This document shows, piece after piece, positions 24,519-38,784 of a stretch of 39,886 nt of DNA (its first letter is position 1; the number at the start of each line of letters is the position of its first letter). The DNA is from a bacterium (GTDB lineage Archaea > Thermoplasmatota > Thermoplasmata > Lutacidiplasmatales > UBA184). The position numbers were made by a program, and so were the translations under genes. Under the pieces are notes generated by a model. That model saw only the letters and a program-made list of their open reading frames with translations, was not told the DNA's origin and did not search any database. Location of the stretch: contig DAIDCO010000015.1 of assembly GCA_027309555.1 (NCBI GenBank), forward strand, positions 1-39,886, read 5' to 3'.

Positions 24519-25307
24519 GTGAGCGATATCCTGCTCGGGACCAGCGGTTGGGATTACTCGGAGTGGCTCGGCCGCGTCTATCCCCCGCGCGGGGTCTCTG
24601 ACCGCCTGGCCTACTACGCCAAGCTGTTCCCGATCGTCGAGGTCAACTCGACGTTCTACCGGCTCCCGCCCCCGTCCGTCGCCGCCTCGTGGGTGCGTCG
24701 GACACCCGCCCGGTTCCGGTTCGCCGCGAAGTTCCCGCAGACGATCACCCACGATCTTCGCCTCGTCGGGACCGACGAAGAGCTCACCCGCTTCCTCGCG
24801 GTGCTCCGTCCGATCCGCGAGGCCGGCAAGTTCGTCGCCGCGCTCCTACAGCTCCCGCCGTCGCTCCCGTTCGAAGCGGCGACCGTGCGCCGGTTCTACG
24901 AGACGCTCCCCCGCGACCTTCCGGTCGCGGTCGAGTTCCGGGAGCGCTCGTGGCTCGTCCGAGAGTCGTACGCGCTCCTGCGGGAGTTCGGGCTCGCCCA
25001 CGTGATCGTCGACGGGCCCCACCTTCCGATCGCACTCGAGGTGACGGCCCCGTTCGCGTACGTCCGCTGGCACGGCCACGGAAGCCCGCTCTGGTACGAC
25101 TACCTGTATGGCCCTGCGGAGCTCTTCGCCTGGGTCCCGCGGGTCCGCACCCTCACCGAGCACGTCACGACCGTCTACGGGTTCTTCAACAACCACTTCC
25201 GCGGGGACGCTGCCGTGAACTGCCGCACGCTCTCGGAGGAGCTCGGGCTCCCGCTGCCGGCCGGAAGCGGGCGGCTCGACGCACCCGAACCCGCGCGGAA
25301 ACCGTAG
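24519..25307 (+). CDS. DUF72 domain-containing protein
   Basis: ILLGTSGWDYSEWLGRVYPPRGVSDRLAYYAKLFPIVEVNSTFYRLPPPSVAASWVRRTPARFRFAAKFPQTITHD...FFNNHFRGDAAVNC. Confidence 0.92.
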   Translation: MSDILLGTSGWDYSEWLGRVYPPRGVSDRLAYYAKLFPIVEVNSTFYRLPPPSVAASWVRRTPARFRFAAKFPQTITHDLRLVGTDEELTRFLAVLRPIREAGKFVAALLQLPPSLPFEAATVRRFYETLPRDLPVAVEFRERSWLVRESYALLREFGLAHVIVDGPHLPIALEVTAPFAYVRWHGHGSPLWYDYLYGPAELFAWVPRVRTLTEHVTTVYGFFNNHFRGDAAVNCRTLSEELGLPLPAGSGRLDAPEPARKP

Positions 25308-25357
25308 CCGCCCTCTCCCTCCTCCCAGGGGCTCGACGGGGGGTCGGCTCGGGCCGG

Positions 25358-25451
25358 GGATCTGCGAAGGACCCCGCCGGGCCCCGCGGAGATCCGTGCG
25401 GAACCGCTACAGCGGTTATCGCTGGAGGCCGGCGCTCTGACGCCGGCCTTC
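25358..25451. other. Three consecutive inverted repeats (possible structured RNA, terminator cluster or element remnant)
   Basis: (i) ggatct(25358-25363).../agatcc(25390-25395); (ii) aaccgc-taca-gcggtt (25402-25417); (iii) ggaggccggcg-ctctga-cgccggccttc (25424-25451, 11 bp with one G.U). In the non-coding gap after DUF72. Confidence 0.45.
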
Positions 25452-25928
25452 CGCAATCCCTGTCGCGTGAGGGCTCGAACGCGGTACCCCATCGACGCAG
25501 GGCTCGCGGTGACGCTCGGTCGAAGCTCCCGAAGCTCGAATCGCGGTACGGGCCGCAGATGTCCATAGTCAGGAACACGCGGCCGGCTGCGTTCGCGGCG
25601 AGATTCTCGAACGAAGCGCAGTGTAATGCAGCTCTTGAAAGTGAGGGCCGAAGGAGGAGGTGCTGGTAGCGGGCCCCATCCGAGACCGGCGGCGGGCGGG
25701 GTGGCTCTAAGCAACGTTTGGGATCACGGAAGCAATGTTCGTACGCGGGGTTCCGGCCGAGGAGATTGGAACGGACAGGAGCTTAGCACGGCTGATCCGA
25801 GTTCCCGGTAACGGGCCCGCGGAGGGCCGTGCGCGGGCGGCGGCCACACGCCCCGAGGAGGCGCCGATTCCGGAGGCTGCTGCACAGGGCTATCTAGGCG
25901 CGTCCATTGGTCTTGGTGGCGATTACGC

Positions 25929-26483
25929 GTGCGGTCACGGTCAGCGGAGACGGCGGAGACGCTCATCCTGATCGGGCTGATCTTCCAGGGGCTCACGGTC
26001 CTCGTGCTCTTGGGAGCGGGATTGTTCCTCCTGATCGTTCCCGTAATCGGAGGCATCCTCCTCTTTCTCGCGCTCCTCGCGTTCGTCTGGCTAATCCTCG
26101 TCTATGCCTACTCGTACGCGCGCACCCGGGACGGGGACTACGAAGGGGCTCGGACGCCAACCTTGGTGTTTGGCATTCTGGCCTTGATAACGGGCGGGAT
26201 CATCTCGGGTATCCTCTACATCGTAGCCGGCGTGAAGCTGGGAGATGCGGCCGACGAGAAGGAGGCAAGAAGGTCACGGCCCTTCTCACCATCGGGTCCT
26301 GCAACAGACTCACCGTTCACGCGATCCCCTTACACTCCTACGACTTCCACGCCGTTGGCGCCCGCAAACTCTCCTCCCGCCTCCACTCCGGTGACCTCCG
26401 GCTCGAGCTTCTGCCCGAACTGTGGTCGACCAACGCCGATGCCGGCCCATTTCTGCCGAAGTTGCGGGGCGTCACTTCAGTAA
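25929..26483 (+). CDS. Membrane protein with C-terminal zinc ribbon
   Basis: GTG start; three to four hydrophobic segments, Pro/Thr/Ser-rich linker, C-terminal CPNCGRPTPMPAHFCRSCGASLQ. Confidence 0.75.
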   Translation: MRSRSAETAETLILIGLIFQGLTVLVLLGAGLFLLIVPVIGGILLFLALLAFVWLILVYAYSYARTRDGDYEGARTPTLVFGILALITGGIISGILYIVAGVKLGDAADEKEARRSRPFSPSGPATDSPFTRSPYTPTTSTPLAPANSPPASTPVTSGSSFCPNCGRPTPMPAHFCRSCGASLQ

Positions 26484-26558
26484 GGGGTACCGACGGAGAC
26501 CGCCGCCGCGATTACCCACGGATCAGCGTACAAGGTTCGAGATCCCCGTCGGGCGCTC

Positions 26559-26882
26559 GTGGGGCAGCCAAGTGTGCCGCACGCCCGCGTCCAGTCGACG
26601 CGCGCTATCGTGGCGACCATGCCGGGCCCCGCGGAGATCCTCGCGAGTGACTGGCGGAAGGCGGGGCGGATCTACGCGCGGTACGGAGCTGCGCTAGAGA
26701 TGATGCGGAGGGCCGCGCGCCCGGGAGCGGCCATGGTGGATTCTCCCGCCCCGGGGAGGGCCCGGCCCGAAAGGCCTCTTCACCCCTGCTCGGTTTCCCG
26801 GTCTCTGCGGGCTTCGGACTCGGCGCGTGACCCCGCGAAACTCTCCCGGTTCGTCGCGCGGCGTTTCGCGACGTTCAAATAG
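26559..26882 (+). CDS. Hypothetical ORF or gene remnant, related to the IS-interrupted fragment at 28.8/30.0 kb
   Basis: RVQSTRAIVATMPGPAEILASDWRKAGRIYARYGAALEMMRRAARPG; similar to RVKAARAAVATTPGLAEILRRA*RRAAWFYARFG encoded by 28825-28896 + 30031-30060. Confidence 0.4.
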   Translation: MGQPSVPHARVQSTRAIVATMPGPAEILASDWRKAGRIYARYGAALEMMRRAARPGAAMVDSPAPGRARPERPLHPCSVSRSLRASDSARDPAKLSRFVARRFATFK

Positions 26883-26920
26883 ATTTTCCTCCATATAGCG
26901 GGAGGGGGAAGGAGACGGGA

Positions 26921-28570
26921 GTGGACGCGAGGGCTTCTGTGGAGCTCGATCAACGGAGCCTCCGTCCGAAGCGACGCCGACCTCGGGTGGTCGTCGCCCT
27001 CGTGATCGCGGCGATCGTGGTGTTGGCTGCGCTGGCCTCGGCGATGACCTTCGGATGGGGGCCTTTCGCTCGTCCCGGGCCCGTGCCTTCCGGTCCACTG
27101 GGTCCTGGGGTTGCGATTCAGGTCGATCCCCCGGCGATCGCGGCCATCGCCCAGGAGCCTTTCGCCACGGTGGCCGGCTCCGTGGTCATCCAGATTTCGT
27201 CGGTCGTGCCCGCCTCGACCGGGTATCTGGCCGAGAACCTGAGCGGAATCAACGCCACAACGAATCCATACACCGATCTTCTCTTCCAAGGCGCGCCGGG
27301 AATCTCGGGCATCGCATCGGGGAACCTGTCCGCGCAGTTCTACTCGATCGACCAGAGCTGGCTCACTCAGGCTAGCCCCCTCACCCAAACGGTCAGTCTC
27401 CAACTACATGCCGAGCTGAACGTCGTCCGCAACGGCACGGACGAGGTCTACACCTACTTCGACAATCTCCCGTACGATCCGCACGCGCCGCCGCTGGTCT
27501 TCACCGCTAAGATCAGCTTCCCGAGCACGCCGATGTTTGCGGTTCCTGCCACTACCCCGGCGGCGGGAGCCCCGCTCTCTCCGGACGGGAAGACCCCTCC
27601 TCCCTGCAACGTAGGGTACTACTGGGTGCAGTGGAACTCGACATACATCTCGAACGGAGTGCTGCCACTGGCGATCGGCAATGCGAATCAGTCTCCGGCG
27701 GGAGCCGAACTCTCGTACGGCATCTCTTTCGCGCAGTCGGCGCTCCAGTTGAGCTTCACGAGCGACACGGCGTACACCTCCTATTCGAGCCTCTCCGGCC
27801 TGCAGATGAGTCAGAACCCTTCCTGGTCGGGCAATGACACCACCTTCCAAGGGGCCATCGAGACCAGCACGGCCACTTCGGGAGGAAACTCCGTCACCAT
27901 GATCGGGCTGACGGGGGTTGAAATGACCGTGACGAACTATCGGTACGTCCACGTCTGGGGGACGTCCGGTAACTGCAACGACCAATGGTATGACAAGTAC
28001 ATGGAGTCGGTCCAGGTCGACGGGTTCTCCGGAGGTTCGAGTTTCACTTTCGGAGCCCCCGCTCTCCCCAGCTTTTTCAGCGGACTCATGAACGACATGA
28101 GTGACTGGGGTTTGCTGGCGAGCGAGAACCTGAAGTGGGGCGGGAGCGGATTCGAGCTGTATTCCGTCATGGTCACCGCGACAGGATACAACAGCGCCAG
28201 CAACGCGGAGGGCCAGGCGGAGGCAGCGCTGTCGACCCTCTCCTTCTGTCTCGGAACGATGCTCTTGGCCGATGACGTGTTGGGTTTCTTTCCGGGATTC
28301 GGAGATGTCGGGAGCACTGCGATCGCTCTCGAGGCAATAGCGGAGGTTGCGGGGGACGCGGCGATGTTCATGACGATGTTCAACTCGATCAGCTTCTCGA
28401 CTTCGGAACACACGTCCGTCGAGCAGTTCGGTGTCAGTGTTGGAACGGGCGGCACACAGACCAATCTCGTGGCGGATGTCTACGCGGCCACCCAACAGGC
28501 CGAGCTGACCCTCGGGGGCGGGAACTCCTACTACCCCAACATGCCGCTGGTCTACGTGGTGGCGACCTGA
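26921..28570 (+). CDS. Large predicted secreted / cell-surface protein, unknown function
   Basis: 549 aa from GTG; basic N-terminus then one TM helix (VVVALVIAAIVVLAALASAMTFGW), Ser/Thr/Gly/Asn-rich extracellular-type sequence, later hydrophobic stretch LGTMLLADDVLGFFPGFGDVGSTAIALEAIAEVAG. Confidence 0.75.
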   Translation: MDARASVELDQRSLRPKRRRPRVVVALVIAAIVVLAALASAMTFGWGPFARPGPVPSGPLGPGVAIQVDPPAIAAIAQEPFATVAGSVVIQISSVVPASTGYLAENLSGINATTNPYTDLLFQGAPGISGIASGNLSAQFYSIDQSWLTQASPLTQTVSLQLHAELNVVRNGTDEVYTYFDNLPYDPHAPPLVFTAKISFPSTPMFAVPATTPAAGAPLSPDGKTPPPCNVGYYWVQWNSTYISNGVLPLAIGNANQSPAGAELSYGISFAQSALQLSFTSDTAYTSYSSLSGLQMSQNPSWSGNDTTFQGAIETSTATSGGNSVTMIGLTGVEMTVTNYRYVHVWGTSGNCNDQWYDKYMESVQVDGFSGGSSFTFGAPALPSFFSGLMNDMSDWGLLASENLKWGGSGFELYSVMVTATGYNSASNAEGQAEAALSTLSFCLGTMLLADDVLGFFPGFGDVGSTAIALEAIAEVAGDAAMFMTMFNSISFSTSEHTSVEQFGVSVGTGGTQTNLVADVYAATQQAELTLGGGNSYYPNMPLVYVVAT

Positions 28571-28660
28571 ACCTGCGGAGGGGTCGGAATCGAAGTGAGG
28601 GTGGCGGGAGCAGGGCGCCGGTAACGGCATCTGCGCCGGCCCGCCCCTGACGACGCGCGC

Positions 28661-28680
28661 ACCCGCGCCTCGGCGCGGGT
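28661..28680. other. Perfect 9-bp hairpin downstream of the surface-protein gene
   Basis: acccgcgcc-tc-ggcgcgggt; followed by a second small inverted repeat gtcgcg-tat-cgcgac. Transcription termination role not shown. Confidence 0.4.
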
Positions 28681-28765
28681 CGCGTATCGCGACCAGGACG
28701 GGGACGCGGAGGAGTCTCCGACTCCGAGCCACCGATTCTCTGCCGTTGGGATCACCAGTGGATTC

Positions 28766-28897
28766 TTGGATGACACCCGAGAAGAGGACGAGCGTCAGGT
28801 CGAGCGGCGCCTCCGCGAGTTGCGCGCTCGAGTGAAGGCGGCGCGCGCGGCCGTGGCGACCACACCGGGACTCGCGGAGATCCTCCGGCGTGCCTAG
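28766..28897 (+). pseudogene. 5' portion of a gene fragment interrupted by the IS630-type element
   Basis: LDDTREEDERQVERRLRELRARVKAARAAVATTPGLAEILRRA*; homology to the 26559 ORF continues on the other side of the IS at 30031 (RRAAWFYARFG vs RKAGRIYARYG). Confidence 0.55.
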
Positions 28898-30000
28898 TGG
28901 GCCGTAACTGACAGACGTTGTATTTTGCGGACCTTTCGCAGGATCGTCTCGGCATCCTTGGTCCACACGAACGGTTGGGCCCTCTCATTGCTGATCTCGG
29001 CATACTCCTCGATCGCGCGCTTCAACGCCGTCACATTACGAAAACTCCCTCGAAGGAGCGCCTTCTTGGTGAGCTTCGAGAACCATCCCTCCACGGCGTT
29101 CAGCAGGGATGATCCCGTCGGGACTTGGTGCAACTGGAACCGCACATGCCGTCGGAGCCACCGCTCCACCTCCTTGGTCAGGTGCGAGCTCGCGTTGTCC
29201 ATGATCACGTGCACCGCGAGATCGGAGGGAGTTCGATCGTCGAGCCTCTGGAGGAAGGAGAAGAACTCTTGGTGCCGATGCCGATGGTGGATCTCGGTCA
29301 CCACCGTCCCGTCGAGGACATTGAGCGCCGCGAACAGGTCGATCGTTCCATGGCGGGCGTAGTCATGCGGCCGACCTTCCGGAAAGTTCGGGCCCATGGG
29401 CAGTACCGCCTGAGTGCGTTCCAGTGCCTGGACCTGGGGCTTCTCGTCCACCGAGAAGACGATCGCCCTCTCGGGAGGATTGCGGTAAAGCCCGACCACG
29501 TCGACCAGCTTCTCCTCCAAGCGAGGGTCCGTACTGAGCTTGAACGATCTTACGCGGCGGGGTTGGAGGTGGTGGTTCGTCCAGACTCGATGAACGGTCA
29601 TGTGGCTCACGCCGAGCTCGGCGGCGAGCGTGCGGGTCGACCAGTGGGTCTCCCCGCGGGGCTTGGTGTGCAGAGTTCGGTCGATGATCCGACGTACGAG
29701 TTCGGGAGGGAGTTCGGGCCGTCGGCCCGGGCGGGGAGCATCTTGGCGGATACCCGGGATACGAAGGAGGGCGAAGCGGGAGCGCCATCGGCCGACCGTG
29801 ATGGGGTTGGTGTGGAGGTCGACGACGATCTGGTGGTTGGTCTGTCCCTCGGCGGCCCGCAACACGATCTGAGAACGGAGGACCAATCGCTGGGGGATGG
29901 ATCGGCCGCGGGACCAGTGCTCGAGTTCGATACGTTCTTCGGGGGCGAGCACGATCGAGGGGGCGAGGCGCATGGAGGGCTGTAACGCAAGCAGGTACAA
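28894..30000 (-). CDS. IS630 family transposase (HTH + DDE)
   Basis: 368 aa: NHQIVVDLHTNPITVGRWRSRF (HTH), VFSVDEKPQVQALERTQ (first D), VHVIMDNASSHLT (second D), SSLLNAVEGWFSKLTKKALLRGSFRNV (E). Start could be internal Met residues. Confidence 0.92.
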   Translation of the reverse strand: MYLLALQPSMRLAPSIVLAPEERIELEHWSRGRSIPQRLVLRSQIVLRAAEGQTNHQIVVDLHTNPITVGRWRSRFALLRIPGIRQDAPRPGRRPELPPELVRRIIDRTLHTKPRGETHWSTRTLAAELGVSHMTVHRVWTNHHLQPRRVRSFKLSTDPRLEEKLVDVVGLYRNPPERAIVFSVDEKPQVQALERTQAVLPMGPNFPEGRPHDYARHGTIDLFAALNVLDGTVVTEIHHRHRHQEFFSFLQRLDDRTPSDLAVHVIMDNASSHLTKEVERWLRRHVRFQLHQVPTGSSLLNAVEGWFSKLTKKALLRGSFRNVTALKRAIEEYAEISNERAQPFVWTKDAETILRKVRKIQRLSVTAH

Positions 30001-30028
30001 TAATGTACCTACTTCAGTTACGGTCCAC
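28897..30028. mobile_element. Complete IS630-type insertion sequence with TA target-site duplication
   Basis: Terminal inverted repeats gtgggccgtaactga (28897-28911) / tcagttacggtccac (30014-30028; revcomp gtggaccgtaactga, 14/15), flanked by TA at 28895-28896 and 30029-30030; one transposase ORF. Confidence 0.93.
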
Positions 30029-30267
30029 TAGCGGAGGGCGGCGTGGTTCTACGCGCGTTTCGGGGTCAGGAGACCTCAGCACGGCACGGGGTCCCCGATG
30101 CATCGATCGGAGAGGAGAACGGCATGGGAGGACCAATCTGTTCGAGAGCCGGCGGAACCTGCGAAACGCGCGTGCGGGCGACTCTCCGCTCGTCTTCCGA
30201 TTGACGATAGACCCCTCTCGGAAGGTTTATGCCGCTCGGGCCAGCATAGCCCCATCGGCCGGGATTT

Positions 30268-31575
30268 ATGGGAGCCGCCATCGACCTTCCGACCGAACTG
30301 GTTCACTTTCTGAATCGCCCTGCGCCCCAGGCGCTGCTGGTGCGAGGGGCGCCCGGCACGGGGAAGACGATGCTGGCCTTGGCCCTTCTTCGCGCGTTCC
30401 GCGGAAGGCGGATCTACGTTTCAAGTCGAGTTCGCCGGGCCGATCTCGACCTCGATTTCCCCTCTCTTCACCAGGCGAACCAGACCGGTCCGCTATCGAT
30501 CGTCGACGTGACCGCCGCCGGTCCCGATCTCCGCGATGCCTCGCGGGCCCTGGGGACCTCCCAAGCGCTGATCAGGGCGGACGCCTCGAGCCGCGGCCTC
30601 CGTGCGCTCCTCTTGCCTCCGGAAGTTCTGGCGGCCTGGAGCCAGACCTCACCGGCCACGCCCGCCCTCATTGTGCTGGACTCGTGGGATGCGCTCGTCG
30701 AACGGCATGTCGGGAGCGCAAGCCGAGCCGACGAGGGTCTCCCCTCGCGCGCAGAGGTCGAGCGGATTGCGCTCGCGCAGATGGCCGAAGGTCCGGTCTT
30801 CCTCGTATTCGTGGTGGAACATCGCGAAGCCAGCCAGCTCGAGTATCTTGTCAACGGCGTCGTGACAATGGAGCGGGAGACCCGCAACGACCGAGTGGAA
30901 CGCTGGCTGCGCATCGACAAGCTTCGGGGGACGCGCATCACCCATCCGTCGTATCCGTTCTCGTTGGAAGGGGGTCGATTCCAGTGCATCACGCCTCTGC
31001 GGCACGACCTGCCGCCTTCCTTCAGCCGCATCGATCCGGAGCCCGGCCGTTCGCCGGGTCAGATATGGCCGGGCTCGGCCGACTATGCTTCGTTGTTCGG
31101 ATGGCTTCCCATCCACAAACTGACGCTCATCGAACACGATGCCGAGGTCCCGCTGGCCGCCGTGAACCTGCTGCTGAATCCGATCCAGAGCCACGTCTTC
31201 CAGCGGGGGGGCCGCATCTTTCTCGTGCCCCCACCCGGTATCCATCCGGTCGATGTATGGAACCTCTACAAGGAACGGGTCCCGAAGGAGGCATTCCTTC
31301 GCCAAGTGCGGATTCTCGGCATGCTGGCGCGCGATGAATCGGAGGACCTCGCCCCTGTGATGCTCCCGCTTCCATCCGGGAACGTGGACGGCTACAACCC
31401 CCGGACTCCCGAGGCCGCGAAGTTCTTGCGTGAGGATTCCAACCCCGAGACCCCTAGCCTCGGGCTCATTTGGATCTCGGGCTTGAAGTCCATCAACTCG
31501 TTGGTGCCCGGTACGTACACCGCCGAAACGCTCCGTTCTCGCGCCGTTTCAACGTCTCCCGAGCCGCCGCTTTAG
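30268..31575 (+). CDS. RAD55/KaiC/GvpD-like RecA-superfamily ATPase
   Basis: 435 aa: ALLVRGAPGTGKTMLALALLRAFRGRRIYVSSRV (Walker A), PALIVLDSWDALVE (Walker B), VEHREASQLEYLVNGVVTMERE. Confidence 0.75.
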   Translation: MGAAIDLPTELVHFLNRPAPQALLVRGAPGTGKTMLALALLRAFRGRRIYVSSRVRRADLDLDFPSLHQANQTGPLSIVDVTAAGPDLRDASRALGTSQALIRADASSRGLRALLLPPEVLAAWSQTSPATPALIVLDSWDALVERHVGSASRADEGLPSRAEVERIALAQMAEGPVFLVFVVEHREASQLEYLVNGVVTMERETRNDRVERWLRIDKLRGTRITHPSYPFSLEGGRFQCITPLRHDLPPSFSRIDPEPGRSPGQIWPGSADYASLFGWLPIHKLTLIEHDAEVPLAAVNLLLNPIQSHVFQRGGRIFLVPPPGIHPVDVWNLYKERVPKEAFLRQVRILGMLARDESEDLAPVMLPLPSGNVDGYNPRTPEAAKFLREDSNPETPSLGLIWISGLKSINSLVPGTYTAETLRSRAVSTSPEPPL

Positions 31576-31615
31576 AGCGCTCCCGGCGCTCGATCCCCCG
31601 GAGGCCTCATCGCTC

Positions 31616-32485
31616 ATGCTCGTCGATCCGTCGTCCGTACCCGGGGGCGTGCCGGACACGCCGGAGCTTTGGGACCCGCTCCCGTACGAGGCCTCCGATA
31701 GCCCCGTCCTCCCGTTCCCTCTCCGCGTCCGACCCGTCCGGCGCCCCCGGGGGAGCCGGACCGCGCCCCTCCTACCGTCCGAGCCGGCGCTGTTCCCCTG
31801 GCTCGCCCGCCGGCTCGCTCCCGGAGAGGCGACGCTCTGGACCGGCCCCCGGGTCGCGATCGAACCGGTCCTCGAGCTCCTCTACGCGGGAAACGCGGTG
31901 GTCCACGGCCGGATCTCCCTCCTCGAAGGGGCGAACCGATTTCATCCGTACCGCATCGGCGAACTCGGACGGGCGTTCGGGGTCGATGCCGCCCGGACGC
32001 TCGAGGGGATCCGGCTCGCCCGGGCGTTCACCGTCTACCAGATGGTCGCCCTGGTCGACGGCTGGGCCGCCGAGGCGCGTCGCCACCCGCCGACCCTGCT
32101 CGTCGGCCACGACCTCCCCGCGCTCTTCGCGGACGCCGAGGTCCCGGTCGAAGAGCGGGCGGCGCTCCTCCGCCACATCGCCCGCGCGCTCCTTCCGCTC
32201 CTGGAGGCGGTCCGCGTCCCTCTGCTCCTTACGCTCGGGCCCGACGGATTCGCCGGGTTCCCCGGCCTCGCGGACGAGGGACCCCGCTGGGCGGATGTCG
32301 TCACGTTCGCCCGTGGGCCGGCCGGCTTGCATCTGCGCGCGCTCCGGGACGACGCCCGGCTCTCGCTCGTGCCGCGACCGGCCGGCCAGCGCGGGATCGA
32401 CGAGTTCGGCGGCGGGTCCGCCGAGGAGGTGATCCCGTGGGACGTACCGCCCCGACCTACCGTCAGGCGCTCGAAGAGCGGATGA
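31616..32485 (+). CDS. RadA/RecA-fold paralogue lacking Walker A (ImuA-like candidate)
   Basis: NAVVHGRISLLEGANRFHPYRIGELGRAFGVDAARTLEGIRLARAFTVYQMVALVDGW resembles the RadA core '..DTENTFRPERI...A...G.D...L.NI..ARAF..' but the position of GPxxxGKT reads TLWTGPRVAIEP. Confidence 0.7.
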   Translation: MLVDPSSVPGGVPDTPELWDPLPYEASDSPVLPFPLRVRPVRRPRGSRTAPLLPSEPALFPWLARRLAPGEATLWTGPRVAIEPVLELLYAGNAVVHGRISLLEGANRFHPYRIGELGRAFGVDAARTLEGIRLARAFTVYQMVALVDGWAAEARRHPPTLLVGHDLPALFADAEVPVEERAALLRHIARALLPLLEAVRVPLLLTLGPDGFAGFPGLADEGPRWADVVTFARGPAGLHLRALRDDARLSLVPRPAGQRGIDEFGGGSAEEVIPWDVPPRPTVRRSKSG

Positions 32486-32691
32486 AGCGCTGGGATGAGT
32501 TCGCGCGGCTCCTGACGACGCCCGAGGAGCGCGCCGCGTTCGAGCTCGTCCGCACCGGGGCTCGACGCTACGCTGCCCAGGCGACGTACGTCGGCAGCCC
32601 CGATCTTCTCGAGTCGATCCTCCTCTCCGTCCTCACCGACCTCGCCGCGCGGATCCGCGTCGAGCCTCCGGAGCGGGCGGCGCACCGCTAA
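32437..32691 (+). CDS. Small helical protein between the RadA-like and PolB genes
   Basis: 84 aa from GTG with near-perfect Shine-Dalgarno gaggaggtgatc (32424-32435); overlaps upstream gene by 49 nt. Confidence 0.75.
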   Translation: MGRTAPTYRQALEERMKRWDEFARLLTTPEERAAFELVRTGARRYAAQATYVGSPDLLESILLSVLTDLAARIRVEPPERAAHR

Positions 32692-32705
32692 CGGGGGAGG
32701 GGGCG

Positions 32706-35030
32706 ACGCCGACGCCCGACGGCTGGCTCCTCGATATCACCGAGAGCGAGGACGGCCGCTCGGTCGTCCTCTGGGTGAAGTCGCGACGGACCGGACGGGT
32801 TCGCCGCACCGCGGTCGAGTACCGCCCGCCGTTCCTCGTCACCGGGGCGCGCCCGGCGCTCGCCGACCTCGCCCGGCACCTCGCGCGCCGACCGACCGTC
32901 GCGCGCGTCGACCTCGGGTCGGGCCGCCCGTCGCTCTTCGACCGACGCCGTTCCCCGGTCCTCACCGTGACGGCCGAGCGGAACCCGGACCGCCGGACGC
33001 TCGCCCGGGAGGTCGACGCGTTCGGTCGCTACGAAACGTTCTCGCTCTACGACGTCGACCTCGCCCCGCCGCAGCTCTATCACCTCGACCACGCGCTCTA
33101 TCCGTTCGCCCCCGTCACGGGAGCGGGCGCAGCGCTCGTCGCGACCGAACCGCCCGAGACGATCGACTACGCCCCGCCCCCGCTCCGCCTCGCGCGGCTC
33201 GAGGTCCGCCTCGCCGGGCAGCGCCGGGGCCGCCTTCCCCCGCCGGACGGCCGGATCGGGTCGGTCCGGCTCGGGGAGACCACCCTCGAGGGACCCGAGG
33301 AGGATCTGCTGCGCGCGCTCGTCGACGAGGTCGCGCGGAGCGACCCGGACATCCTGCTCACACAGGGCGGCGATTCCTTCGACCTTCCGTGGCTCTACCG
33401 TCGGGCGGCAGCCTGTGGGCTCTCCCCGGCCGAGTTCGCCCTCGGCCGGGAACGGGTCGGCTTCCGGCCGTCCCGGCCCGCCGGCGCGTTCGAATCGTAC
33501 GGTCGGGTCCTCTACCGGTCCGCGTCGTTCCCGCTGCCCGGCCGGTTCCACATCGACCGGGAGAACTCGTTCCTCTACGACGACGCCGAGATCGCCGGTC
33601 TCGTCGATGCCGCCCGGCTCTCCCGCCTCTCGCTCGCGACCGTGGTCCGCCAGTCTCCGGGGACCTGCTTCACGGCGATGGAGATGGCCCACGCGCTCGC
33701 GCTCGGCGCGCACGTGCCGTGGAAGAAGAACCGCCCCGAAGGGTTCCGCCGGGCGGACCGTCTGGTCGCCGCCGACCGCGGCGGCGTGATCTTCCTCCCG
33801 CCGGTCGGTGTCCACGACCACGTCGACGAGTTCGACTTCGCGAGCCTCTACCCGCACATCATGGTACGAAAGAACCTCTCGGCGGAGACGCTCGAGTGCC
33901 GCTGCTGCCCGAGGAGCCCGATCCGGGCGCCGGGGCTCGGCTACCGCTCCTGCACCCGGCGCGTCGGGCTCATTCCCCGTACCCTCGCGCCGCTGCTCGC
34001 CCGGCGGCTTGCCTACAAGGCGGCCCTGAAGCGGCCCGGCCTCCCCGCGGAGGAGGCGTACCGTCTCCGTCGCCGCGTGAAGATGCTGAAGTGGATCCTC
34101 GTGACGGCGTTCGGCTATCAGGGCTACCGCAACGCCCGCTTCGGCCGGATCGAGTGCCACGAAGCGATCAACGCCTACGCACGGGAGCTCATTGCGTCGC
34201 TCCTCCCCCCGGCCGAGCGGGCCGGCTACTCGGTCCTGCACGGGATCGTCGATTCCCTGTGGCTTCGGCCGACCGACCTCGCACGGCCGCCGGACCCCGA
34301 GCGGTTCGCCGCCCGGATGAGCGAACGCTTCGACCTGCCGCTCGGCTACGAGGGCCGCTACCGCTGGATCGTGTTCCTGCCGGCGGTGACGCACGGGCTC
34401 GGGGTGCCGAACCGGTACTACGGGCTCTACGAGCACGGAGAGTTCAAGCTCCGCGGGATCGGCGGCCGTCGTCACGACACTCCCGGGCTCGTCCGGCGGT
34501 TCGAGAGCGAGGTGCTCTCCCTGTTCCGGGCGGCGCGGGACGCGGACGGGGTGCGGGCGCTGCTCCCCCGGGCGCTCGCCCGTGCCGACCTCATCGCCGC
34601 TCGTCTCGCGGCGGGCGATTGGCCCGTCGAGGAGCTCCTCGTGAGCCACCGGGTCGGTCAGGCGCCCGAGGCGTTCGTCACCTTCACCGATTCGGTCGCG
34701 GCGCTCCGCCAGCTCGCCGACGCGGGCGCCCCGCGGGGAGCGGGAGAGGTCGTCCGCTTCGTCCTGCTCGATCGAGAGAGCCGCTCGTTCCGCCGCCGGG
34801 TGCGCGTCGCGGAGATGCTCACGGGGGACGAGCGGTACGACGCGGGGGCGTACCTCGACCTCCTCGCGCGGGACGCCGAGACCCTTCTCGCCCCTCTCGG
34901 GGTCGACCGAGCGACGCTGCTCGAGCGCTGGGGCGCCGACGAGGCCTCGCCGCGCGGCCCGTACCGTTCGCCCGAGCGGGCCGGGCAACTCGAGCTCGCG
35001 TCCGCGTCGGGCCCCGAGCGGACCTTTTAG
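32706..35030 (+). CDS. Family B DNA polymerase, PolB2 (Dpo2)-like with altered exonuclease and motif C residues
   Basis: Motif A DEFDFASLYPHIMVRKN; motif B region LKWILVTAFGYQGYRNARFG; motif C HGIVDSLWL (YGDTDS expected); ExoII-like DPDILLTQGGDSFDLPWL. First canonical start in frame is GTG 32775, but PolB-like sequence DGWLLDITESEDGRSVVLWV starts upstream; in-frame ACG codons at 32706/32712 follow a gggggaggggg tract. Confidence 0.85.
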   Translation, partial: TPTPDGWLLDITESEDGRSVVLWVKSRRTGRVRRTAVEYRPPFLVTGARPALADLARHLARRPTVARVDLGSGRPSLFDRRRSPVLTVTAERNPDRRTLAREVDAFGRYETFSLYDVDLAPPQLYHLDHALYPFAPVTGAGAALVATEPPETIDYAPPPLRLARLEVRLAGQRRGRLPPPDGRIGSVRLGETTLEGPEEDLLRALVDEVARSDPDILLTQGGDSFDLPWLYRRAAACGLSPAEFALGRERVGFRPSRPAGAFESYGRVLYRSASFPLPGRFHIDRENSFLYDDAEIAGLVDAARLSRLSLATVVRQSPGTCFTAMEMAHALALGAHVPWKKNRPEGFRRADRLVAADRGGVIFLPPVGVHDHVDEFDFASLYPHIMVRKNLSAETLECRCCPRSPIRAPGLGYRSCTRRVGLIPRTLAPLLARRLAYKAALKRPGLPAEEAYRLRRRVKMLKWILVTAFGYQGYRNARFGRIECHEAINAYARELIASLLPPAERAGYSVLHGIVDSLWLRPTDLARPPDPERFAARMSERFDLPLGYEGRYRWIVFLPAVTHGLGVPNRYYGLYEHGEFKLRGIGGRRHDTPGLVRRFESEVLSLFRAARDADGVRALLPRALARADLIAARLAAGDWPVEELLVSHRVGQAPEAFVTFTDSVAALRQLADAGAPRGAGEVVRFVLLDRESRSFRRRVRVAEMLTGDERYDAGAYLDLLARDAETLLAPLGVDRATLLERWGADEASPRGPYRSPERAGQLELASASGPERTF

Positions 35031-35052: not shown

Positions 35053-36558
35053 GTGCCGGACCGCGGGCGCCGACGTACCTCGCGGTCCCGCTCGCGGGTC
35101 CGCATCCGCCGTCGGACGCCCGGAGGAGCGACCGCGGTACGGTCCCCCGCGGAGCGGGCCGTGTCGATCCGCGCGAGCGTGGAGTGCGGGCTTGTGTCGG
35201 ACCTCGGCCCCCTCCTCGCCGCCCTGAACGACCCGGTGCCCGGGATCCGCGAGACCGCCGCGGTCGCGCTGGGGATCCTCAAGGACCCGCGGGGACGTTC
35301 GTCGCTCTCGGCCGCACTCTCCGACCCGGACGCAAAGGTCCGCGCCGCCGCCGCCGACGCGCTCGGGGCGATCGGCCACGGCGAGAGCCGGGGCGCGCTC
35401 GAGTCGGCGCTCGAGGACCCCGCGCCGGGCGTGCGCGTGAGCGCGGGATACGCGCTGGCCCGGCTCGCAGACCCGCGCTCGGTGGCCCCGCTCTCCGCCC
35501 GGGTGGACGACGCGATGCCCGAGGTGCGCCGGGCGGTCGCGGCCGCGCTCGGCCAGGGCGGGACCCCCGAAGCGCGGCGCCTGCTCGAGCCCTTGCTCGA
35601 GGACCCGCAGGACCGGGTGCGGCGGGAGGCGCTGCTCGCCTTCGGACGCTCGGCGGGGCCCGCGGAGCTCCCGACGATCCGGGCCCGCCTCTCGGCCCGT
35701 TCCCGACGGGTCCGCGTCGCGGCCGCGATCACCCTCGGCCGACACCGCGACGCCGAGAGCGTCACGGCGCTCCTCGGTCTTCTCCACGCGCGCGAGACGT
35801 GGGAGAAGCCCGCGGTCCTGGTCGCCCTAGGGCGGATCGGCTCCCCCGCGGCCGTCCCCGAACTCGCCCGCGCGGCCGACCACCCGGCGCACTGGGTCCG
35901 GGTCTGCGCGATCCACGCCCTCGGCGAGATGCGGGCTCCCGAGGCCCGGTCCGTCGCCCTCGCCCATCTCACCGATACCGCGTGGTCCGTACGAGGCGCC
36001 TCGGCCGTGGCGCTCGGCGAGGTCGGGTGGCCCGCGGACCTCTCCGTGCTGCTCGCCCGTCTCCGAGACGAGCACCCATGGCCCCGCCGGGGCGCGATCT
36101 ACGCCCTCGGCCGCCTCGGCCTTACGGAGGCGGCTCCCCGCATCCGCGAGGAGCTCGGTGATGCGGCGGCCGAGGTACGGCTCGCGGCGGTATGGGCGCT
36201 CGGCTGTCTCGCGGACGACGGCGCTCGGGAGGAGCTCGTGCGACTCCTCTACGAGTCCCACCCGGTCGACCGCGCGACCCCAGCCCCTCGGGCCGAGGAG
36301 GAGAGCTCACTTCGGTCCGACGCGGAGAGCCGGCTCTTCGACGCGGCCGTCCAGGCGCTCGGGCGCCTCGCCCACGGCGTGCCCGACGCCCTGATCCACC
36401 GGGCGCTCGTCGACGCGCGGGGGCGCCTGACCGAGGAGGAGCTCGACCGGGCGGCGCGACTTCCGCTCCCCGAGATCGGTGCCGACCGGCCCCCCCCGAC
36501 TGTGCGTCTCCTCTTCGATGCGGCGATCCCGAGCTCGGGGGAGGACGACGACTCGTGA
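35053..36558 (+). CDS. HEAT-repeat (PBS-lyase-like) protein
   Basis: About 31-residue repeats e.g. LLAALNDPVPGIRETAAVALGILKDPRGRSSLSAALSDPDAKVRAAAADALGAIGHGES...; GTG at 35053 lies about 26 nt after ccttttag (35023-35030). Confidence 0.85.
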   Translation: MPDRGRRRTSRSRSRVRIRRRTPGGATAVRSPAERAVSIRASVECGLVSDLGPLLAALNDPVPGIRETAAVALGILKDPRGRSSLSAALSDPDAKVRAAAADALGAIGHGESRGALESALEDPAPGVRVSAGYALARLADPRSVAPLSARVDDAMPEVRRAVAAALGQGGTPEARRLLEPLLEDPQDRVRREALLAFGRSAGPAELPTIRARLSARSRRVRVAAAITLGRHRDAESVTALLGLLHARETWEKPAVLVALGRIGSPAAVPELARAADHPAHWVRVCAIHALGEMRAPEARSVALAHLTDTAWSVRGASAVALGEVGWPADLSVLLARLRDEHPWPRRGAIYALGRLGLTEAAPRIREELGDAAAEVRLAAVWALGCLADDGAREELVRLLYESHPVDRATPAPRAEEESSLRSDAESRLFDAAVQALGRLAHGVPDALIHRALVDARGRLTEEELDRAARLPLPEIGADRPPPTVRLLFDAAIPSSGEDDDS

Positions 36559-37499
36559 AGGTGCGCGAGCTCCGCGCGGCGGACGCCGCCGACCTCCTCG
36601 GATTCCTCCAGCGTGACTTTCCCGAGGAGGAGGCCCTCCTCGGCACCCGCCCCGAGGGGTTCCAGGAGGTCGTCCGCCGGGTCTTCCGATGGGATGTGCG
36701 GCTCGTCCTCGGGCTCTTGCGGCTCGTCGGCCGGCCGATCTTCCGGTTCTTCGTGATCGAGGAAGGGGGTCGGCTCGCCGCGACAACGCTCCTTACCTAT
36801 TCACCGCGCGCCGGCTACGTGAGCATGGTCGTGGTCGCCCCGGAGCATCGGCGCCGGGGGTTCGCCCGCACGCTCCTCGAGGAAGCTCGTCGCGCGGCCC
36901 GGGCGCGGGGCCGACGCTACGTCGTGCTGGACGTCCTCGCCGCCAACACGCCGGCGCGAACGCTCTACGAGCGGCTCGGATACCGGACCTTGCGGAGCAC
37001 GGCCTACTTCGTCCACGACCGGCCGTCGGCCCTCCCGCCCGCGCCGGGGGGCGGCGTGACGGGACAGCGGCCGTTCCGTCCTCGCGACGCCCGGGAGCTC
37101 GCTCGAATCGACGCTCGCTCCCGCCCGGCCGACGTCGTGCGGGTGCTGCCGACGAGCCCCCGGGATTTCACCGGATCGGCCTGGGAAAGCGGGCTCCTCG
37201 CCAGCGAGCGCGCGGCCTGGGTGATCGACGACGGGGAGGGTCCCCGGGCCTGGGTCTCGGCGACGATCTCGAAGGCGACCGAAGCGGGACATCTGTCGAA
37301 CCCGATCGTCGACGGATCGGTGACGCCCGAGCGAGTCGAAGCGCTCGTCCGGACCGCCGCGGCCTGGTGTGCCACGCGCGGTGCGCCGCGACTGCTCGCG
37401 ATGGTTCCCGAGGAGAACGAACGAGGTCGGGCCGCCCTGACGGCCACGGGGTTCCGCGATGTCCTACCGGTCCTCACGCTCTACCGGACCGTCGACTGA
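36555..37499 (+). CDS. GNAT acetyltransferase with probable second GNAT-like domain
   Basis: GTG overlaps upstream TGA (GTGA). First domain VSMVVVAPEHRRRGFARTLLEEARRAARARGRRYVVLDVLAANTPARTLYERLGYRTL; second half TPERVEALVRTAAAWCATRGAPRLLAMVPEENERGRAALTATGFRDVLPVLTLYR. Confidence 0.85.
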   Translation: MKVRELRAADAADLLGFLQRDFPEEEALLGTRPEGFQEVVRRVFRWDVRLVLGLLRLVGRPIFRFFVIEEGGRLAATTLLTYSPRAGYVSMVVVAPEHRRRGFARTLLEEARRAARARGRRYVVLDVLAANTPARTLYERLGYRTLRSTAYFVHDRPSALPPAPGGGVTGQRPFRPRDARELARIDARSRPADVVRVLPTSPRDFTGSAWESGLLASERAAWVIDDGEGPRAWVSATISKATEAGHLSNPIVDGSVTPERVEALVRTAAAWCATRGAPRLLAMVPEENERGRAALTATGFRDVLPVLTLYRTVD

Positions 37500-38784
37500 T
37501 CCGGGCCGCGCCCGCCGCGGGGGCGCGGACGTCTACCTCTTCCCGGCCGTGGTCGGTGGAGGCCTCGGGGACATCGAGGAGGTGCTCGCCGCGGGGCGAT
37601 GTCTCGCCAGGGCCGGGTTCCCGATCTTCCTCTACCGAGGGCGGGACCGGCCGCTCCCCCGGTCGGTCGAAGGTCCCTGGGATTGGCCACCGCTAACGAG
37701 GATCGACCAGCTTCGCCCCACCGCCTCCGCAGCGCTCACCGTCAGCCCGTCGTTCGGCCTCAGCGCGGCCCGCCACCGTCCGGGTCCCCTCGGCCGGGAG
37801 GGGCCATGGGCCGTCGAGGCCCAGGAGGTCGAGGCCTCGTACGGGCCCGGTCGCACCCTCCATGTGAGCCTCGAAGAGTTCGCTCGCACGCTCACGAGCC
37901 GCGAGGAGACGCGCGAACGGCTGCGCGAAGGGGGCGTGCGATCCCGGGCGCTTGCCGCGGGCGCTCGGCGGGCGCGCGCGGCCCAGGAGGAGGCGACGTT
38001 CCGGGTCGCGTTCGAACGGTTCCGCGCGTTCGAGCGCGCGGACGTCCTTCATCTCTACGCCACGTTCCGCCCGAATCCTGCGTTCGCCCGGGAGTTCCCC
38101 TCGGCGGTGCAAGTCGGCCCCCTCTGGTCGGAGGGTCGTGGCCGGGTCCGCCGTGGAAAGGTGGGAGAGAACCGCGAATGGGTATGGTACGCGAGCCCCG
38201 CGAGCGCCGAGCGGATCGCACCGTCGGTCGCCGCGGGCCTGCACGGTAGCGGGACTTCCGTACGCGTGCACGTTCGCTCGCCCCGCCCCTGGCACTCCGT
38301 TCCGGCCGAGTCGACCTGGAGCTTCGCTACCCTCCCGGAGCCGTCCGCGGCCTGGCGGCGCCGGTTCGCCGAGGCGGAGGTGCGGATCGTCACCGGCAGC
38401 CGCTCGCTCCTCGAAGCGATCGAGGTCGGAGGACCGTTTCTGTACTTCAACGGGATCCTCGGCGAAGGGTCCCGCGCCCGACGACACCGCCCCGAGAAGC
38501 TCCGGGCCCTGCTCGACTTCGCCCGCACCGCGGGCCTCCCGGACGACGTGCGACGCGACCTTGCCGACTTCGGACGGGGACGGCGCGTGGCCGACGTGGT
38601 GGGTCGCGTGGCGTCCCACTCCGGGGGCTGGCGGCATTTCGCGCTCGCGCCGCGGTCGGTCGATTTCCGACCCCCGTTCCACGATGCGGGGGCGCTCGTG
38701 GTCGCGGTCGCCCGCTCGCTCGCGCGATCCGAGGCCGTCGCCTCGGAGGTCGTCGCGCGGGTGCGCCGGGGCTCGAATCCTTAA
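37459..38784 (+). CDS. Conserved-looking hypothetical protein (possible GT-B-like fold)
   Basis: 441 aa, overlaps GNAT gene end by 41 nt; ADVYLFPAVVGGGLGDIEEVLAAGRCLARAGFPIFLYRGRDRP; no family recognised with confidence. Confidence 0.65.
   Translation: MSYRSSRSTGPSTDPGRARRGGADVYLFPAVVGGGLGDIEEVLAAGRCLARAGFPIFLYRGRDRPLPRSVEGPWDWPPLTRIDQLRPTASAALTVSPSFGLSAARHRPGPLGREGPWAVEAQEVEASYGPGRTLHVSLEEFARTLTSREETRERLREGGVRSRALAAGARRARAAQEEATFRVAFERFRAFERADVLHLYATFRPNPAFAREFPSAVQVGPLWSEGRGRVRRGKVGENREWVWYASPASAERIAPSVAAGLHGSGTSVRVHVRSPRPWHSVPAESTWSFATLPEPSAAWRRRFAEAEVRIVTGSRSLLEAIEVGGPFLYFNGILGEGSRARRHRPEKLRALLDFARTAGLPDDVRRDLADFGRGRRVADVVGRVASHSGGWRHFALAPRSVDFRPPFHDAGALVVAVARSLARSEAVASEVVARVRRGSNP

Follow-up and report, generated by a model that had tools for sequence, protein, structure and literature searches.

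The analysed stretch of DNA, hereafter the window, is 39,886 nucleotides long and belongs to a single contig in a Thermoplasmata genome bin of 2.0 Mb. The ORF check of the window found three genes, all on the + strand and forming a tight operon, in agreement with the first-pass annotation, which had described them as overlapping or abutting. They encode a RadA-like protein (iRadA), a small protein (PPB2), and a B-family DNA polymerase (PolB2), and their coordinates are collected in Table 1 together with those of the neighbouring features. The search for a TATA-box pattern gave no match. The observations presented here concern the three genes with their motifs and conservation, the fold and the helices predicted for iRadA and PPB2, respectively, and the position of the polymerase within PolB2.

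Table 1. Features of the PolB2 locus and its upstream region (positions in the window).
Feature	Position	Strand	Basis and remarks
DUF72 gene	24519..25307	+	Pfam PF01904, 4.7e-63; in relatives, commonly the gene before the trio
Lineage-specific insert between DUF72 and iRadA, 6.3 kb	25308..31615	.	Comparison, GC; carries IS630 and the RAD55/GvpD-like ATPase
IS630 element	28894-30031		Transposase NF033545, 1.6e-67; 18-nt terminal inverted repeats 28894-28911 / 30014-30031, ending CTAG
iRadA, RadA/Rad51-fold protein without P-loop, 289 aa	31616..32485	+	Pfam, profile against PDB, AlphaFold/Foldseek
PCNA-box-like motif QRGIDEF, iRadA C-terminus, residues 258-264	32387..32407	+	Motif count, alignment, model
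Shine-Dalgarno of PPB2, GGAGGTGATCC, within the iRadA coding region	32425..32435	+	Read directly
PPB2, arCOG07300-like, 84 aa, N-terminal arm MGRTAPTYR followed by helices	32437..32691	+	Alignment, model
PolB2 polymerase (probable start)	32706..35030	+	Tree, motifs, upstream conserved residues, NCBIfam; mechanical ORF from GTG 32775

The product of the first gene had been read as a RadA core from which the Walker A motif is missing, and both parts of this reading hold. The sequence contains no P-loop, and the match to the Pfam Rad51 family (E=2.3e-4) falls just under the cut-off, with weak matches to the DMC1/RadA models of NCBIfam. The profile constructed from 45 relatives finds the solved RadA structures in the PDB at E=7e-12, and the AlphaFold model (pLDDT 85) resembles RadA, RAD51, and DMC1 in Foldseek (E about 2e-11). 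Residues 1-50 are modelled with low confidence and without helices, and the N-terminal helical domain is absent. At the other end of the protein, a PCNA-box-like motif of the form Q..[ILM]..[FYW] occurs within the last 60 residues in 62 of 64 relatives, where shuffling of the tails gives an expectation of 0.5. Its Q258 is invariant across the 45 alignment rows, and a short helix is modelled at residues 261-264. The tails of PolB2 carry such a motif in 4 cases out of 78. It was previously reported that the clamp motif is found more often in iRadA than in PolB2 (PMC11791011); as judged from motif occurrence, the bias seen here agrees with that report, and the putative clamp motif of iRadA is nearly universal in this clade.

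The second gene encodes a protein which starts with MGRTAPTYR, including Arg3 and Arg9. Relatives share the pattern MGRTxPTYR, and MGRT is invariant among the 39 aligned PPB2 relatives. A gene with the MGRT start is also located directly upstream of PolB2 in haloarchaeal plasmid operons. Three helices are modelled in the window protein, at residues 8-25, 29-51, and 57-75. The fold search of this monomer against the PDB gave no significant match, and therefore the published resemblance to sigma factors is not reproduced from the monomer. The small gene does adjoin the first one, as initially described, but its placement has to be corrected, since it starts inside the 3′ end of iRadA. The overlap amounts to 49 nt in the window and has the same length in 57 of the 69 loci in which it was measured. 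A Shine-Dalgarno-like motif precedes PPB2 in 69 of 72 loci, and conservation is raised there; in the window this motif, GGAGGTGAT, falls in the EEVI codons of the iRadA tail. The conservation within the overlap follows the codon frame of PPB2. Some of the conservation in the iRadA tail is therefore probably a by-product of the PPB2 signals.

The start of the third gene is less regular. The mechanical ORF begins at GTG 32775, and the PolB2 proteins of relatives have about 25 further conserved N-terminal residues (TPDGWLLDITESEDGRSVVLWVK), which are also encoded in frame upstream of this GTG in the window. Because conserved in-frame residues precede it, GTG 32775 is probably internal, and the true start would lie about 70 nt upstream, at about 32706, with a non-standard codon. 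No ATG, GTG, or TTG start for the conserved N-terminus is present in the window at 32694-32775, nor in the relative L005:5915-6001. One candidate is the ACG at 32706, which follows a G-rich, Shine-Dalgarno-like stretch. It is also possible that the missing standard start reflects a sequencing error.

The product of 32775-35030 is a B-family polymerase, and its motifs read as the first-pass annotation had given them: motif A is DFASLYP, motif C is HGIVDS, and the position of ExoI is occupied by LARLEV. The PolB3 of the same genome has YSDTDS in motif C and SFDIEN at the ExoI position; the ExoI motif of the window PolB2 is gone. All aligned PolB2 rows contain HG[IL][IV]DS, in contrast to YSDTDS or YGDTDS in the PolB3 rows, and all have a D(K/R)GG motif before motif A, which is ADRGG in the window. 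One member of the family, L143:2421-5120 (G054:C36), has an apparent intein in motif B, with the insert extending from CLDSGTEIPF to VLTHN, before CFGYTG. The loss of the first Asp of motif C, the Asn of motif B, and all ExoI residues would fit the older view, according to which the complex, with a catalytically dead PolB2, acts as a structural or regulatory replication factor. This view is nevertheless quite improbable here, as the Asp of motif A, the second Asp of motif C, and the Lys of motif B are retained, and the Dpo2 of S. islandicus, with the motif C change IID, is a robust polymerase (PMC8764526, PMC11791011). The change to IVD in the window is of the same kind, and by this analogy the window PolB2 is likely to be catalytically active.

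The region upstream of the trio differs from that of relatives. DUF72 is found upstream of iRadA in 36 of the 58 loci whose upstream sequence extends for 1 kb or more, at a median gap of 124 nt, and its enrichment near polB2 has been published (PMC11791011). In the window, the two genes are separated by an insert. The closest relative, L010 (90% identity), lacks it and has 92 nt between the end of DUF72 and iRadA. The GC content of the insert is mostly 0.60-0.69, compared with 0.71-0.78 in the operon. In the stretch 25300-28900 there are diverged direct repeats (at 25370, 26579/26615, and 28822/28858) as well as long ORFs with no match in Pfam; these may be decayed copies of genes. The insert also encodes the RAD55/GvpD-like ATPase, whose possible participation had been suggested in the first-pass annotation. 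Such a four-part mutasome, with the ATPase as an active recombinase-like motor, would account for its intact Walker A motif (APGTGKT) and its location on the same strand as iRadA, 40 nt ahead of it. However, among 109 loci the ATPase adjoins the trio at the window locus only, within the lower-GC, IS630-carrying insert which parts DUF72 from iRadA, and this contradicts the suggestion. Its homologues occupy other positions in many relatives, and the window genome itself encodes a 45% identical paralogue on a different contig. The DUF72-iRadA inserts of other relatives hold assorted unrelated genes, with no shared ATPase and nothing recurrent. A four-part complex is therefore highly improbable, and the ATPase is rejected as a fourth component, being an unconserved neighbour.

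The trio without the ATPase was followed through the relatives; those with names are Thermoplasmata MAGs, among them Candidatus Lutacidiplasma silvani, whose order is described in PMC9287336. In the phylogeny of 45 rows, a 100/100 branch divides PolB2 from PolB3 and leaves the window polymerase on the PolB2 side; the tree contains no PolB1 sequences, and its groups were labelled by BLAST score, with the motif columns agreeing independently. With respect to PolB1, the assignment is based on HMM scores: the PolB1-type NCBIfam models reach 67-114 bits, and NF004418 (type B DNA-directed DNA polymerase) scores 401.5 bits (6.5e-120), below its curated cut-off of 692. The phylogeny called for in the first-pass annotation thus places the polymerase in PolB2 rather than PolB3. 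An intact proofreading PolB3 or PolB1 misread as PolB2 has next to no chance of being correct, even with a palm similar to that of the Pyrococcus and Thermococcus polymerases, since an intact PolB3 is encoded separately in the genome and the split in the tree is clean; the tree excludes PolB3, and PolB1 is judged by the HMM scores. That PolB3 (DFKSMYP, YSDTDS, DIEN) is accompanied in the genome by a Y-family polymerase, PCNA (G000:C25), and one strong and a second, weaker RadA-family match.

All three genes are present in 68 of the 78 related PolB2 loci and contiguous in 64. The other 10 are without a detected neighbouring PPB2 or iRadA, some of them at contig ends or with homologues which have diverged too far; L044, L062, L070, and L079 have PolB2 genes with neither iRadA nor PPB2 detected next to them. 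Within the genus, a close PolB2 is present in all genomes that are at least 90% complete. Neighbouring ORFs were called with a codon-weighted caller, since shadow ORFs swamp the clustering in a GC-rich genome. At two loci other genes separate PPB2 from PolB2, namely a DUF981 gene with an unknown gene (L046:2610-5090) and an MFS transporter encoded on the opposite strand (L061:4426-5760). Directly downstream of the window operon, at 35053-38784, lie genes for a HEAT-repeat protein, a GNAT acetyltransferase, and an unknown protein of 441 aa, which are kept in the close clade and not at more distant PolB2 loci. The window trio is thus almost certainly the PolB2 mutasome operon, in the order iRadA-PPB2-PolB2, of a Thermoplasmata archaeon from the Lutacidiplasma lineage. 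The proposal that PolB2, an inactivated RadA, and a small helical protein constitute a damage-tolerance polymerase complex agrees with every test run and had already been published. None of the findings which the first-pass annotation had named as speaking against it (grouping with PolB1 or PolB3, a first product without RecA-fold similarity, an unconserved trio) was encountered.

The way in which such a complex may act can be outlined from published work. The Dpo2 of S. islandicus is damage-inducible, has no proofreading, extends mismatched or lesion-opposite ends, and produces targeted mutations (PMC7390963, PMC8764526). Likewise, the window PolB2, without proofreading, would extend primer ends that are mispaired or lie opposite a lesion. 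According to the published models, iRadA has lost ATP binding and would act in docking, anchored by a RadA-like oligomerisation motif of PolB2, which in the window protein probably lies around GTCFTAMEMA. A PPB2 trimer is expected to insert one of its N-terminal arms (MGRT, Arg9) between PolB2, iRadA, and DNA. Recruitment of the clamp would proceed through the C-terminal PCNA-box-like motif of iRadA and not through PolB2. The outcome would be damage tolerance, and its cost mutation. An extended module DUF72-iRadA-PPB2-PolB2 is a tentative and somewhat unlikely elaboration; in it, the DUF72 TIM barrel, resembling a UV endonuclease, would act on lesions together with the polymerase, itself tethered to PCNA solely via iRadA.

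Several known systems can be compared with the window operon. The first-pass annotation had seen in it a layout like that of ImuA/ImuB/DnaE2. Both this system and Pol V (UmuC-UmuD'2-RecA), the latter being the published structural parallel of the PolB2 mutasome, combine a damage-tolerance polymerase with a RecA-family protein, and to this extent the analogy stands. It remains an analogy only, as the polymerase belongs to family B here and to family Y or C there, with no Y-family ImuB or C-family DnaE2 in the trio; the likeness of their small subunit to PPB2 is similarly an analogy. The Sulfolobus Dpo2 (PMC7390963, PMC8764526) shares with the window the PolB2 family, the degenerate motif C, and the missing exonuclease site, whereas the window host is a GC-rich Thermoplasmata archaeon. 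In 2014, Makarova predicted an operon of PolB2, inactivated RadA, and arCOG07300 (PMC4104785); the same three families are found here, with no Orc1/Cdc6 gene among the scanned neighbours. The names iRadA and PPB2 come from the work of Timinskas in 2025, together with a model of the heteropentamer of PolB2, iRadA, and three PPB2 (PMC11791011). In that work the order iRadA-PPB2-PolB2 is among those listed, the first Asp of motif C is replaced in most members, and the D(K/R) motif contacts PPB2. The window shares with this system the gene set and order, the MGRT arm, the D(K/R) motif, the IxD motif C, the decayed exonuclease, the iRadA clamp motif, and the DUF72 neighbour, and nothing essential differs. 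The window operon is thus an ordinary further example of an already described system, and the picture of that system is unchanged. The additions are modest and consist of features of this clade: the near-universal PCNA-box-like motif of iRadA, the 49-nt overlap with the Shine-Dalgarno motif of PPB2, and the close link to DUF72, often immediately upstream. They come with PolB2 mutasomes in large number, nearly universal within a single uncultured archaeal clade, and this set sharpens two published predictions, the recruitment of the clamp via iRadA and a functional link between DUF72 and PolB2.
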